Below are positions 40,352-56,122 of a stretch of DNA of 64,000 nucleotides, piece by piece; the stretch's first letter is position 1, and each line of letters begins with the position of its first letter. Source of the DNA: an uncultured SAR86 cluster bacterium. GTDB lineage: Bacteria > Pseudomonadota > Gammaproteobacteria > Magnimaribacterales > D2472. The stretch is from the NCBI GenBank assembly GCA_905181595.1, contig CAJIYI010000001.1:587938-651937 (forward strand), in the 5' to 3' direction. The position numbers and the translations under genes are program-made. The notes beneath the pieces are model-generated. The model was not told the DNA's origin and did no database searches. It saw only the letters and a program-made list of their open reading frames with translations.

Positions 40352-40378
40352 AAGCCTCGCATTTGCGGGGCTTTTTTA
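40352..40378 (+). terminator. Intrinsic terminator between convergent genes
   Basis: A 10-bp stem AAGCCTCGCA/TGCGGGGCTT (one T-G pair) with a TT loop is followed by a T run. It serves the TonB gene and overlaps the stop of the convergent esterase gene. Confidence 0.9.
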
Positions 40379-41364
40379 TTGTATGACACCATTAATGTCA
40401 TACTTTGAAAAAAACTCCCAAATTCTTTTACTAGAATCTGGCTCTCTTATACTTGCATATATTGAACCTGGCCAAATATGACCTGCTCCTTGAACATACA
40501 AATGAATATTCTCAGTACCATTTAAACAATTTGAATACTGATAAGTTTCTGTCCAAGATGTTGTACCGGGTAGAATGCCGGGAAGTGACAACACGTAATC
40601 ATCACATGCATTGCTTACTTTCCAATACTCCATAACATCCATTATTGGTTTCATGTTTAGGGTATCTAATCCCTTGTAGGGCACGGTGAAATCAAGTGAG
40701 CCATGTATCTGCATAACTGGAGTAGGCTTTCTAGGGTTGCAGCTATCAAAAGTGCTTTTTGTCATTGAGCCAGTTACAGATGCTACGGCTGCGAAGCTCG
40801 CGCTTAAATTGCATGCTAGATGGAAGCTAAAAAAACCTCCATTTGACATTCCGGTTGAGTAAATTCTTTCTGCATTAATGGAATATTTATCCATTAATAA
40901 ATTAATAAGATTCTCAGTAAACTTAACATCATCATGCACGCTTTCTGACCAGCCTTTAATATTCCAATAACTGGTTCCAACAATATCATCAAGGGCTTCA
41001 GGATGCACAAGAATAAATCCATTGGCATCGGCTTGCGATCTAAGATCTCCATAGTTCATTTGCTCGCTGGCATTACTGCCATAGCCATGAAAATTAAATA
41101 CTAAAGGTTGTTTTGTATGAGCTGCTCGTAGCTTGATGGGACATAAAGAATAAACGTACGATCAATGTTTTCGTAATTTATGGTTCCGTTTATTGTGCCC
41201 TGTGCTTGAGATTCAAGATTACTGGATATAGCTGGTGTTGGGGGAGCGACTGGCGAAGCTGGCGTTGGTTGAATCGATGGGCCACTGCCTCCGCCGCCTC
41301 CACCACAAGAAATGAGGAGTTGAGCAGCAAGTAAAATTACACATAAATTGGATACTTTCATCAT
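40376..41364 (-). CDS. Lipoprotein PHB-depolymerase/feruloyl-esterase-like hydrolase (frameshifted near 41125)
   Basis: The lipobox LLISCGGGGGG is followed by a Pro/Ser linker and a catalytic domain. One missing A near 41125 rejoins LYVPSSYE to AAHTKQPLVFNFHGYGSN, which holds the oxyanion HG motif. The nucleophile is in YSTGMSNGGFFS, the acid in HGSLDFTVPY and the His in GAGHIWPGS. Restored length is 329 residues. The family (LpqC/PHB depolymerase, carbohydrate esterase 1-like) acts on polyesters or plant esters outside the cell membrane. Confidence 0.84.
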
Positions 41365-45311: not shown

Positions 45312-45379
45312 TTTTTTACAGTAATTAGGGCGACGAATTAAATAAAAGTAAAAAACTTAAACTTTTTTATCAAAAGGTG

Positions 45380-45407
45380 TTGACACTTTTATTCAGAGGC
45401 GTATATT
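45380..45407 (+). promoter_or_regulatory. Promoter of RNA cassette copy 1
   Basis: A perfect -35 TTGACA, 16-base spacer and -10 TATATT, with predicted start near 45414. Both hexamers are unchanged in the second copy although bases just outside them differ. Confidence 0.75.
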
Positions 45408-45607
45408 TAATAGACCAACTCAGACCGACTTACAAACAACTGCAGACGGGAGTAAGAGAGAAAGAGAAGGCAGAGACGAAGGGCGAAAGCGATGCTAAGA
45501 GTTGACGATAAAAAAGAGCTTAGTATCCCACCAAGAAGGCAAGAGAAAACCTTCAAGGAGCTAAAGAGAATCTCACTTTAGACCTCTTCCAATCTCGAAC
45601 TTAAGAA

Positions 45608-45630
45608 ACAGAGCTTGCTCTGTTTTTTTT
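45608..45630 (+). terminator. Terminator of RNA cassette copy 1
   Basis: A 7- to 8-bp stem ACAGAGC/GCTCTGT with a TT minimal loop and T8. It is identical in copy 2. Confidence 0.92.
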
Positions 45631-45671
45631 CGTCTCTAAGTTATGCGATCCTATTTATAAAAAGAGAGCAA

Positions 45672-48770: not shown

Positions 48771-51233
48771 ATGTCTATTTCTAATACATTTTTTAGATTC
48801 GTATTTGCATTTTCTTTTTTCTTTATTTCATTTGCTTTGATCGCTGAACCAACTTTAGAAGAGGTTGTCGTATCAGCTCGAAAAGTTGATGAAAGTGTTC
48901 AAGATGTACCTATTGCAATGAGTGTTTTTACTTCAAGCGATATAAGTGATGCAGGCATCGAAAGACCTGAAGATTTTATTGCCTTAACTCCAAACGTAGT
49001 AATGGCAAATACTGTTAATGTTGGAGACACACTTGTAACCATTCGAGGCCTTACATCTACCCGAGATGCAGAGTCTAACTTTGCTTTTGTTGTAGATGGT
49101 GTTTTACAAACAAATCCAAATGCTTTTAACAGAGAGCTTTTAGATATTGCTCAAATTGAAGTACTTAAAGGACCACAAGGTGCGCTTTATGGAAGAAATG
49201 CTACGTCCGGAGCGATTTTAATTACGACCAAAGCTCCCTCTGAAGAATCTGAAAGCACAGCAGTAATAGGCATGGGTGTTAATAACGCCTCTAAATTACA
49301 GTATGTTAATTCCGGCAAGATGGGCGATAACGTGTATACAAGATTTTCTGTCAGTACAAGAGAAACTGATGGAGAGCACACAAACGTTTATTCAAACCTT
49401 AAAAATGTAGATTTCTTTGAAGACACAACTCTTCGAGGAAGGGTATTGGTTGAAGAAGATGATAGCTCTTGGGATTTTAGATTTGGCATGAGCGAGGCCA
49501 GCGGTGGAACTATTAATTTTAATGCTGTTTTTGCGCTTCCTGCCTTTCAGGGCTTTGGAACTCCAGGTGCTGACCAGTTCTTTAAAGATGTAAACGATCA
49601 TAAATTTACATACATGTTTAACGTTCCCCCGGTTAACGAGCAAGAAACATCTGATCTATCTATTAAATACACAGAAGATTTAGCAAACGGCAGAGAGTTC
49701 TCTGCTATCTTTGCCTACAACCATCTTGAAGAATTTTTGATGTCCGATGGAACGTCTGGCGCTTTTGGTGGTTATTTTGGAGTGCCTTCCTGTGCAGCTT
49801 CCAATACAGCCGCTAATCTAGCCTTGATTAATTCCTTGCCTCCTGGCTTTTCATTCGCTGCTCCAGGCACAGCGCCCTCAGGTGCAAACTCTGTATTAGG
49901 GCCTTATCTGCCTCATACGTGTGATGGCTATCAATTCCAGTCACGGGATCAAGATGATATGTCGATTGAGGTGAAGTTAACCAGCAATCAAACTGAAGCA
50001 ACTAGATGGTTGATCGGTGGATACTATGCCGAAATTGACAGAGATGTTGCAGTTGCATATGGTGCTGATCTAGGTAAAGGTTTTGAATTTAAATCTTATG
50101 TTCCAGCGACAGGGAAAAATCCTACTGATTTATCATTTGATGATACTTTTACTACAGATGTCTTCTCTATCTTTGGTCAATACTCTATAGATTTATCTGA
50201 TGCTACTGAGCTTTCTTTGGAAGGAAGATATGATAAAGAAAAACGTTCAGTTGATAACAATGTTCCGGCTACAGATCGTCAGCTTTATATTATGGTGGCG
50301 GCGCTCCAATCAACCCTGCAATGACAGCAGGTGGCAGTAAAATTCCATCAAGAGACAAATCATATGATCAGTTCCAGCCTAAAATTTCTTTAACCACAAC
50401 TGCTGAAAACACCACAGTCTATGCTTCTTACGGTGTTGGCTTTCAGATCAGGTGGTTTTAACTCATCTGGAAGTGCAGCTTTGATTAATTCCCAGCTAAA
50501 TATTCCAGTATCTGCTGGTTTAGGCGTATCTGATTCTTTTAATAAAGAAGTTTCTAAATCATTTGAAGTTGGCTTTAAGGGTAGATACCTTGATGGCAGA
50601 CTTGCTATCAATGGTGCAATTTTTGAGACAGAAGTTGATGACAATCAGTTTTTTGAATTCTTTGCAGGGCCATGGGGTTTACTAAGAGTAGTGACTTCTA
50701 TTGATCAGCTAGATATTAGCGGCTCAGAGTTAGACTTTAAATATGCTCTAACTGATAGCATCAGATTAGACGGTGGTATTGGTTATACAGATGGTGAAAT
50801 TAAAAAGAACGCGCATAGACCAAATACTGTAGGAAATAACGCACCGTTAGCTCCTGAACATACTTACAATCTCGGGATGCAATACGAAACTGCATTCTCA
50901 GCAAACTACGATCTTGTAGTGAGAGTAGATTACATGGAAGTTGGCGAAACTTGGTTCCATACTGTTCAAAATAATCAGCAACCTTCAGTTTGGGGAGCTT
51001 TACTTGGATTCCCAGTGGCCTCTGACATGAGTAAATCTGTTCGAGACCCATATACTTTGGTTGATCTTAGAGCCTCTATAGTTGGAGAGAAGTTAAGTCT
51101 TACTCTGTGGGGCAGAAATATTAATGATGAGGAGTATCTAGCAGAGGTTATTCCAGCTCCAGAATTTGGTGGATCTTTCATTCATCAAGCACCTTACGCA
51201 ACCTATGGTTTAGACTTAAAATATAATTTTTAA
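48771..51233 (+). CDS. TonB-dependent receptor (two frameshifts near 50290 and 50440)
   Basis: The signal peptide ends at LIA; TonB box LEEVVVSARKVDESVQDVPI and the plug signature AQIEVLKGPQGALYGRNAT follow. The first frame ends at 50324, a middle piece (NPAMTAGGSKIPSRDKSYDQ and on to YASYGVGF) is in a third frame, and the last frame begins RSGGFNSSGSAAL. The barrel closes with ATYGLDLKYNF. The two shifts cancel, giving 820 residues. It lies just upstream of, and on the same strand as, the hydantoinase genes (gap 15 bases) and probably imports their substrate. Confidence 0.87.
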
Positions 51234-51248
51234 AAGGGATTAATTTTT

Positions 51249-53310
51249 ATGTCATATCGCCTAGGTGTTGATGTTGGTGGAACCTTTACAGATTTTTTAT
51301 TAATCAATGAATCTGATGGCTCCACATATACTGCAAAGGTTCCATCCACTCCGGAGGATTCATCTATTGGAGTTCTCAATGGGGTTGCGCGAATCTGTGA
51401 GCAATCAGGCGTAAACCCAAAAGACATAAAGCTCGTTATGCATGGTACAACTGTTGCAACTAACGCTGTTTTAACTGGAAATGGAGCAAAGGTAGGACTC
51501 CTTACCACTCAAGGATACGAGAGTATCTTGCAAGTAGCTCGTTCATTTTGTCCGGGTGGTCTTGGTGGCTGGGTCAGTTTTGTGAAAGGGCCATTGCTAG
51601 CTCCACTGGAATTAACCTATGGCATCAAAGAGCGAACAGATGCTTCCGGAGAGATTTCCATACCATTGGATGAAGATCATTTAAAAGAGCAGCTAACTCA
51701 ACTAAAGAAAAGGGGACAAGTTGAGGCTTTAACAATTAGCTTTGTTAATTCATACATCAACAATGCGAATGAAGTTCTTGCAGCAAAAATTGCTGCAGAA
51801 ATTTTTACAGATGTTCCTATTTCTATTTCAAGTGAAGTTATTCCTGAAATGCAAGAGTATGAAAGAGCCGAAACAACGGTCTTAAATTCCTATGTCAGAC
51901 CACAAGTTTCTAGCTATGTTAATAATCTGCAATCCAATCTAGAGAAATCATTAGGGAGCGATGTTCAGCTATCCATCTCTAAGATCTGATGGTGGGCTTG
52001 CATCAAGTCGCTCTACTGGAGACTCTCCAGTTAATCACCTTATGTCAGGTCCTGCTGGTGGAGTTGCGGGCGCAATACATTTTTGTAACCAAGCAGGTTT
52101 TGAAAATATCTTAACCTTTGATATGGGAGGAACTTCAACAGACGTTGCGTTGATTCAAAATTCAAAAGCAAAAATTAGAAGAGAAACTTTAGTTGGAGAT
52201 GTTAGGGTTAAAGCTCCTTCAGTTGACGTTAGAACAGTTGGTGCAGGCGGTGGTTCGATAGCCTTTGTCCCCGAGCTTACAAAAGCTCTGAGAGTAGGTC
52301 CAGAATCTGCTGGAGCTGTTCCAGGTCCTGCCGCATACATGAAAGGGGGAGAGCAACCTACCGTTTGCGATGCAAATATAGTTCTTGGTCTTCTTCCTAG
52401 CGATGTTCAGCTTGGTGGTGACATGATTATTAATAAAGAAGCTGCTGAAAAAGCTGTTCAAACTATTGCTGATGGAATTGGCATTGATTTAATGGAAGCT
52501 GCTGAAGGAATTATTAGAATCGTAAATGAGTCTATGTTTGGTGCCTTGAGATTAGTGTCTGTTGAGCAAGGATTTGACCCCAGGGATTTTGCGTTAGTTG
52601 GGTTTGGGGGTGCTGGACCACTTCATGCTAATGCTTTGGGTATTTTGTCTAATTCCTTTCCTGTAATTATTCCTCCAGGGCCTGGCGTTTTGTGCGCCTA
52701 CGGTGATGCTACAACTCAGATTCAGGATGAATCTTCTAGATCTTATCTATCTATGGCTCAAGATATTACAACAGATAAATTCTTAAATGACTTGAGTGAA
52801 CTAAAAGAAAAGGCTTCTTCATCTCTCTTAAAAGACGGTGTAAGCGATGCTAATTTAGAAGTAACCTATCAAGCTGATGTTAGATATGCTGGCCAAGCAT
52901 TTCAAATTACTGTTGAATTTGATGAGAAAGAATATCAAAGCAAAGGGATTCAATTAATTACTGATGCATTTGATGAAGAGCATTATCAATTATTTACCTT
53001 TAAATTAAGTGATGGTCATGAAATCTTGATGATCAGGGCTATTGTAAAAGTTCAACAATCCGAAATTAAATCTTTAGTAAATGAGAACTTCGCTGGTTCA
53101 CTGGATGATGCTGTAATTCAAGATTCTCGCTTTTATCATGAGGCTCAATGGCATGATGCAAAGATATATGATCGAACAAAGCTGCATGCAAAACTAGTGG
53201 TTCCTGGCCCTGCTATTGTTTCTGAGATGGATTCTACTAGCGTTATCTTGCCTGGCTATGCTGCGGAAGTTGATCAGGTAGGCAATTTAATTATCAACCC
53301 TAAAAAATAA
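51249..53310 (+). CDS. hyuA: Hydantoinase/oxoprolinase subunit A (frameshifted near 51976)
   Basis: The N-terminal ATPase-like lobe is YRLGVDVGGTFTDFLLIN, followed by MHGTTVATNAVL (about 58). The frame breaks near 51976, where one extra T separates VQLSI from LRSDGGLAS. Then come MSGPAGGVAGAIHF, FDMGGTSTDVAL and FGGAGPLHANALG. Restored length is 686 residues. HyuA with HyuB performs ATP-dependent opening of hydantoin-type rings (N-methylhydantoin, 5-oxoproline or acetophenone carboxylation relatives). The next gene, subunit B, starts two bases after the stop. Confidence 0.9.
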
Positions 53311-55769: not shown

Positions 55770-55809
55770 CAAATAATACAAAAAACTTAAACTTTTTTAT
55801 AAAAAGGTA

Positions 55810-55837
55810 TTGACACTTTTAATCAGAGGCGTATATT
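55810..55837 (+). promoter_or_regulatory. Promoter of RNA cassette copy 2
   Basis: TTGACA, 16-base spacer, TATATT, identical in both hexamers to copy 1; predicted start near 55844. Confidence 0.75.
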
Positions 55838-56038
55838 TAATAGACCAACTCGGACCGACTTACAAACAACTGCAGACGGGAGTAAGAGAGAAAGAGAAGG
55901 TAGAGACGAAGAGCGAAAGCGATACTAAGAGTCGACAATAAAAAAGAGCTTAGTAACCCACCAAGAAGGCAAGAGAATACCTTCAAGGAGCTAAAGAAAA
56001 TCTCACTTTAGACCTCTTCTAATCTCGAACTTTAAGAA

Positions 56039-56061
56039 ACAGAGCTTGCTCTGTTTTTTTT
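56039..56061 (+). terminator. Terminator of RNA cassette copy 2
   Basis: ACAGAGC-TT-GCTCTGT stem followed by eight T residues, identical to copy 1. Confidence 0.92.
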
Positions 56062-56122
56062 CGTCTACAAGTTCCTAGATACTCTCTTCAAATTTAAAAA
56101 ATATGGCGTATAGTGCAAAAAT

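Follow-up and report, generated by a model that had tools for sequence, protein, structure and literature searches.

IMES-1 of SAR86 bacteria, a duplicated RNA gene whose product probably associates with itself through palindromic loops

Two genes for IMES-1 in a SAR86 genome

What is encoded by a small gene unit that stands twice on the same strand of a bacterial genome, each time with signals of its own for the start and the end of transcription? The window analysed here, a stretch of 64,000 nucleotides from a relative of SAR86, a group of marine bacteria, carries two such units on its plus strand, at 45350–45642 (293 bp) and 55780–56073 (294 bp). The repetition is real: 278 of 294 aligned columns are identical (94.6%), and the two copies share only 30% identity in the 60 bp upstream of the units and 40% in the 60 bp downstream. 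A search of the whole genome (1.41 Mb in two contigs, 87.6% complete) located two copies, both in the window.

Copy 1 consists of an upstream A/T tract, a promoter, the RNA and a terminator. Read directly, the -35 hexamer TTGACA (plus strand, 45380–45385 in copy 1 and 55810–55815 in copy 2) and the -10 hexamer TATATT (45402–45407 and 55832–55837) are identical in both copies and separated by 16 bases, and the stem and T run of the intrinsic terminator (45608–45630 and 56039–56061) are likewise the same. The predicted transcript is about 217 bases long, close to the 215 or so proposed in the initial annotation. That annotation had described a small-RNA gene that is free-standing, duplicated and equipped with a promoter and a terminator of its own, a description which our analysis supports; its further statement that the RNA belongs to no known family was wrong. 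An Rfam scan of the window returned three matches, a tRNA and two full-length copies of IMES-1 (RF02034), at 45419–45608 (plus strand; 195.9 bits, E 2e-44) and 55849–56039 (plus strand; 190.4 bits, E 5e-43), each covering model positions 1–191 of 191. Because both exceed the curated cut-off of 81 bits by more than 100 bits, the resemblance is beyond chance and membership of the family is established by the match itself. IMES-1 is the only family that the units match at gathering level, so the earlier exclusion of tmRNA, 6S, RNase P, SRP and riboswitches holds; even at E 1 or better the sole other match of copy 1 is to AgrB, over the terminator, with 28.5 bits against a cut-off of 40. We thus take the units to be genes of IMES-1, a structured RNA of SAR86, presumably made from a consensus-like promoter and ended by an intrinsic terminator.

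IMES-1 is described as an abundant transcript in marine metatranscriptomes, and we know of no function ascribed to the family so far. Our literature search returned no paper with the whole word IMES-1 and none combining IMES with Rfam and metatranscriptom; the original family descriptions lay outside its scope, and the palindromes or the link to IMES-5 discussed below may already stand there.

Among 203 genomes of the window's order, 128 have a match to IMES-1 at E 0.001 (121 above the cut-off), and the same search found it in none of 14 control genomes. By tally, the positive genomes comprise 84 from the window's own family (f1), 25 from f3, 15 from f4 and four weak cases from f2. A draw across the class gave IMES-1 in 3 of 369 genomes, all three within the order, to which four of the 369 belong (the kinship of 346 genomes being inferred); none of the 365 sampled genomes of the class from outside the order had it. 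A 16-base search word, for which chance matches are expected, gave 102 matches in genome contigs, 12 of them from records named SAR86, and when six of these loci were put through Rfam only the SAR86 one contained IMES-1. The records with this RNA are named SAR86, a marine host. A phage origin was also considered and rejected, as loci with the search word from 10 viral contigs included none with IMES-1. Several of the IMES-1 matches are found at the ends of contigs (e.g. G041:C4:16-161, G052:C80:16-162, G087:C7:5-151 and G133:C5:1-171). Assemblies may be interrupted at this repeated gene, so that some absences in fragmented genomes could be artefacts.

The transcription signals extend beyond the window. 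The terminator pattern is present in 137 of 138 anchored copies (94/94 in f1, 27/28 in f3 and 16/16 in f4), and promoter-like hexamers, with at least four of six bases matching at both, in 94/94, 17/28 and 11/16 respectively, the latter counts being made in A+T-rich DNA without a random control; four copies without an anchor are left out of both. In f1 copies the best gap between the hexamers was 19 in 53 and 16 in 38, ties being given to the longer gap, so that the spacing is settled for the window only. An A/T-rich tract upstream of the -35 hexamer was seen by eye in most of 72 copies.

Duplication of IMES-1 is not rare: copies were read from 117 genomes, and 25 of these have at least two distinct ones. 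Seventeen two-copy genomes were represented in the first 72 copies, and in five of them (G066, G067, G090, G134 and G141) the cores are identical, an indication of gene conversion or of recent duplication. The genes next to IMES-1, named by Pfam on one example each, vary from family to family, but f3 and f4 each have a steady set. Upstream of 25 of the 29 f3 copies stands an electron-transfer-flavoprotein quinone oxidoreductase, and downstream of 24 a DUF1285 gene; in f4, 14 of the 15 copies have a short-chain dehydrogenase on their upstream side, and all 15 are followed by prephenate dehydratase; and pyruvate kinase lies next downstream of 31 of 98 f1 copies, including copy 2 of the window. 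This copy has an isochorismatase-like frame on its other side, and copy 1 is flanked by an M20 peptidase and a patatin-like gene. IMES-1 thus looks like a free-standing RNA gene, independent of any single protein gene, and its RNA would probably act in trans. Nearby duplicates in many genomes might equally be expected of a mobile or repeat element that is no RNA gene at all, but this is hardly credible given the steady neighbours in f3 and f4, the retention of the terminator and the compensatory changes in the helices described below.

Some protein genes of the window appear to be split. Frames 48771–50324 and 50421–51233 together make up what is presumably a TonB-receptor-like protein, for which a pseudogene or an assembly error is possible; the overlapping frames 51249–51989 and 51961–53310 make up one that we take to be hydantoinase-like; and frames 40376–41059 and 41101–41364, on the minus strand, one that we assume to be esterase-like.

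Structure and self-complementary loops of the RNA

The RNA would be laid out as a 5' arm (P1–P2) followed by a 3' domain, whose outer helix surrounds P3, P4 and P5. RNAalifold on 60 sequences pooled from all families (72 copies less 12 that were duplicates or contained N) failed to recover P1, P2 and the greater part of the outer helix, and in the MAFFT alignment the P3 loops of different families stand three columns apart. The families were then folded separately (85 f1, 28 f3 and 13 f4 sequences, those identical or with N having been dropped). In f1, f3 and f4 alike, this predicted the outer helix enclosing P3, P4 and P5, followed by the terminator. The 5' arm was predicted in f1 and f4 only; RNAalifold pairs it otherwise in f3, where P1 can be recognised by eye in several copies as CUAUC/GAUAG.

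The paired helices announced in the initial annotation are borne out by covariation in the outer, P3, P4 and P5 helices. We scored 37 pairs, of which 31 belong to these helices and six to the two loop words introduced below (P1 and the P2 stem being excluded), on 39 f3 and f4 sequences (42 minus L162, L171 and L183). Of the cells, 94.6% are paired, compared with 24–45% when the partners are slid by one to three columns, and 160 cells are changed on both sides as against 43.5 in shuffles. Two further measures hardly depart from the shuffles: 18 pairs have a two-sided change against 15.1 (a value reached by 16 of 500 shuffles), and there are 40 further pair types against 40.1.

The loops of P4 and P5 are complementary to each other, with GAGA at 45543–45546 and TCTC at 45571–45574 in copy 1, and at 55973–55976 and 56001–56004 in copy 2 (all plus strand). 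The combination GAGA/UCUC is found in 130 of 142 copies and GAGA/ACUC in nine f3 copies; two copies have compensated variants (AAGA/UCUU in L186 and GAAGA/UCUUC in L153) and one could not be parsed. This covariation suggests a kissing contact of P4 with P5, which probably lies inside one molecule.

P2 and P3 each have, in the apical loop, a six-base word that is complementary to itself. P2 carries the palindrome CTGCAG in both window copies (plus strand, 45440–45445 and 55870–55875), and every one of the 142 copies has either CUGCAG (114, in f1 and f4) or CUCGAG (28, in f3), a linked switch of two bases and the one kind of change seen in this word. In P3, copy 1 has GTTGAC (45501–45506), with G–U as the centre pair, and copy 2 the palindrome GTCGAC (55931–55936), both on the plus strand. 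Across the same copies the P3 word takes 12 forms (GUCGAC, GUCGAU, GUCGGC, GUUAAC, GUAUAC, GUGCGC, GUGCAU, GUUGAC, GCUAGC, GCAUGC, GGUACC and GCCGGC) and is self-complementary in 142 of 142, strictly in 103 and with G–U in 39; in L197_5002 the word GTCGAT was taken from the alignment and set by hand in the counts. The 142 copies are the 162 matches minus two partial ones and loci that were fetched twice or identical with their flanks, and they contain 121 distinct cores. Six-column windows were scored along the alignments, 163 for f1 and 157 for f3 and f4 together; self-complementarity in 100% of copies was confined to the P2 and P3 words, the next-best windows reaching 92% and 55% in the two groups.

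On a tree of the 121 distinct cores, built from the RNA itself without the loops and carrying no support values, 25 changes are required to explain the P3 words; 14 of them are two-sided, and all 25 keep self-complementarity. Random changes of equal size kept it in 3.2 of 25 on average and in at most 11 (20,000 trials). The outcome of 25 out of 25 follows from all tips being self-complementary, so its weight lies in the number of changes. Adjacent bases within a loop thus covary in a way that retains the palindrome, which is the pattern of a symmetric kissing loop; since six adjacent bases cannot pair inside their own loop, it points to kissing between two RNA molecules, in a homodimer or a chain.

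The two words of the window can also pair with each other, GUUGAC of copy 1 with GUCGAC of copy 2. As bare duplexes the former is weak (-2.6 kcal/mol) and the latter has -7.5 kcal/mol. Wherever a genome has two copies, 25 cases in all, their words are compatible, and in 23 cases they are identical; over the whole set, 9 of 66 pairs of different words are compatible. RNA from both genomic copies would join one pool, if the copies meet as proposed. Part of the P2 word is used otherwise in some RNAalifold predictions, which pair positions 28–30 with 35–37 in f1 and CCGA with UCG of the P2 word in f3; these alternative pairings could be competitors of kissing or products of small samples.

Taken together, the loops argue that IMES-1 probably works as an RNA-only homomultimer, in which P2–P2 and P3–P3 kissing would hold molecules together as a homodimer or a higher-order chain. 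We infer that the loops meet in the cell, in some such stoichiometry, and that the assembly would be what acts there, perhaps by serving some further protein as a scaffold. Several points count against the proposal: the alternative pairings of the P2 word and its single kind of switch, the weak duplex of the copy 1 word, the prevalence of identical words within a genome, and the lack of a palindrome in the corresponding hairpin of IMES-5, the apparently related RNA treated below. That IMES-1 is a monomer and offers its palindromic loops to a symmetric protein dimer, or to a different RNA with the same words, is an unlikely alternative: a dimeric protein could equally select loops with two-fold symmetry, and a partner of some kind is suggested by the many bases that are invariant without belonging to the proposed pairs. 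A protein that reads sequence, or a fixed RNA target, would not be expected to let the P3 word drift through 12 variants while leaving it self-complementary throughout. It is very improbable that the words are protein-binding sites at the level of DNA. Many of them are perfect DNA palindromes, but they sit in the apical loops of hairpins, with a covarying stem in the case of P3, and they differ between close relatives as an operator would not.

Relation to IMES-5 and the question of protein partners

A model built from 37 IMES-1 sequences (R1) matched 8 of 40 f2 genomes at E 0.001. Seven of the eight loci contain the loop AACUCGAGA, in a smaller RNA; L262 is without it. Three of the seven were put through Rfam and all proved to be IMES-5 (RF02995), with 126–154 bits, and the Rfam model of IMES-1 found two of these three weakly (34 and 31 bits; cut-off 81). 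By eye, IMES-5 has in common with IMES-1 a P2 loop with CUCGAG, the stretch GGGUGAAAAG, CCACC and a tail of the form CCCCUUC..CUUCG. It differs in that the hairpin matching P3 has no palindrome and in that the 3' domain has another loop pair, read by eye as GGGU/ACCC (AGGU/ACCU in L275). Judged from these likenesses, the two RNAs look related, with the P2 loop and the 3' tail in common. The link would merge two orphan families into one superfamily.

IMES-5 scores above its cut-off in 48 of the 203 genomes of the order, 27 from f2 and 21 from f3, with none from f1 or f4, and an Rfam cut-off search of the window's own genome did not find it. In f2, a class I tRNA synthetase gene lies next downstream of 23 of 24 copies, e.g. 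L269:1501-2678, where Pfam assigns it to the W/Y type. IMES-1 and IMES-5 occur together in one SAR86 family, f3, and in 13 f3 genomes they lie 13.1–14.0 kb apart on the same contig and on opposite strands, facing each other. The P2 word of IMES-5 is CUCGAG in 29 of 30 copies, the slice of the 30th being incomplete; in single-sequence folds the GAG of this word is paired in 5 of 7 copies. IMES-1 of f3 has this same word, and IMES-1 of f1 and f4, families without IMES-5, has CUGCAG.

This split of the P2 word fits a picture in which mixed IMES-1/IMES-5 dimers form in f3 and the word was released after IMES-5 had been lost. The split may be a single event, and shared descent also explains it. In a fuller version, IMES-1 would self-assemble through its two loops, either as closed dimers or as alternating chains, and would form mixed dimers with IMES-5 in f3 through the shared P2 word; to this version we give a little less than even weight.

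For a small RNA the default explanation would be a base-pairing regulator of the Hfq type, or else a sponge for CsrA. Purine-rich stretches and a pyrimidine loop in IMES-1 would suit such a role, and GGA is slightly more frequent in f1 copies than in mononucleotide shuffles (5.6 versus 4.7); in f3 and f4 copies it is at shuffle level (3.7 versus 4.0 and 4.4 versus 4.1). No Hfq was found in any of the 203 genomes of the order by a search that was positive in 5 of 14 control genomes, which argues against the default, and neither CsrA nor ProQ was found in the window's genome (87.6% complete). CsrA was found in 63 of the 203 genomes, 34 from f2 and 29 from f3, with none in f1 or f4. Hfq, CsrA and ProQ are thus disfavoured as partners of IMES-1 by their absence, and we regard regulation of this type as improbable, although IMES-1 may pair with other RNAs without Hfq.

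The bearing of CsrA on IMES-5 is a separate matter. The two are confined to the same two families, f2 and f3, and the P2 word of IMES-1 differs along the same split. In 24 f2 copies of IMES-5, GGA occurs 3.25 times compared with 3.28 in shuffles; five f3 copies have 6.0 against 3.5 in shuffles. A sponge reading of IMES-5 is a weak lead, and one shared loss or gain could explain the matching distribution.

Comparison with known systems

The Rfam consensus structure of IMES-1 (RF02034) leaves both palindromic loops unpaired, and the reading of them as homodimer contacts is added here. Among free-standing bacterial RNAs, 6S RNA (RF00013) is of comparable length. It is distinct from IMES-1 in that the window's genome has a separate 6S gene on its other contig (contig 2; 65 bits), and RF00013 does not match the units at gathering level.

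In plan, the P2 and P3 loops resemble the dimerization initiation site of HIV-1, an apical loop that likewise carries a purine-flanked palindrome of six bases (PMC4066764; PMC7357161). IMES-1 differs in being bacterial and in having two such loops, and we claim no homology.

Further parallels are the RNA-only multimers OLE and GOLLD (PMC12286853). Both are larger and were solved by cryo-EM, whereas IMES-1 has about 217 bases and its multimer is proposed from sequence comparison. If the homomultimer proposed for IMES-1 is real, a widespread lineage of marine bacteria would possess a natural self-assembling RNA of only this size. For loops L9.3 of OLE and L21a of GOLLD, the same study takes covariation of adjacent bases within a loop palindrome as evidence of intermolecular kissing (PMC12286853), and it is in this respect, symmetric loop palindromes supported by adjacent-base covariation, that IMES-1 is like them.
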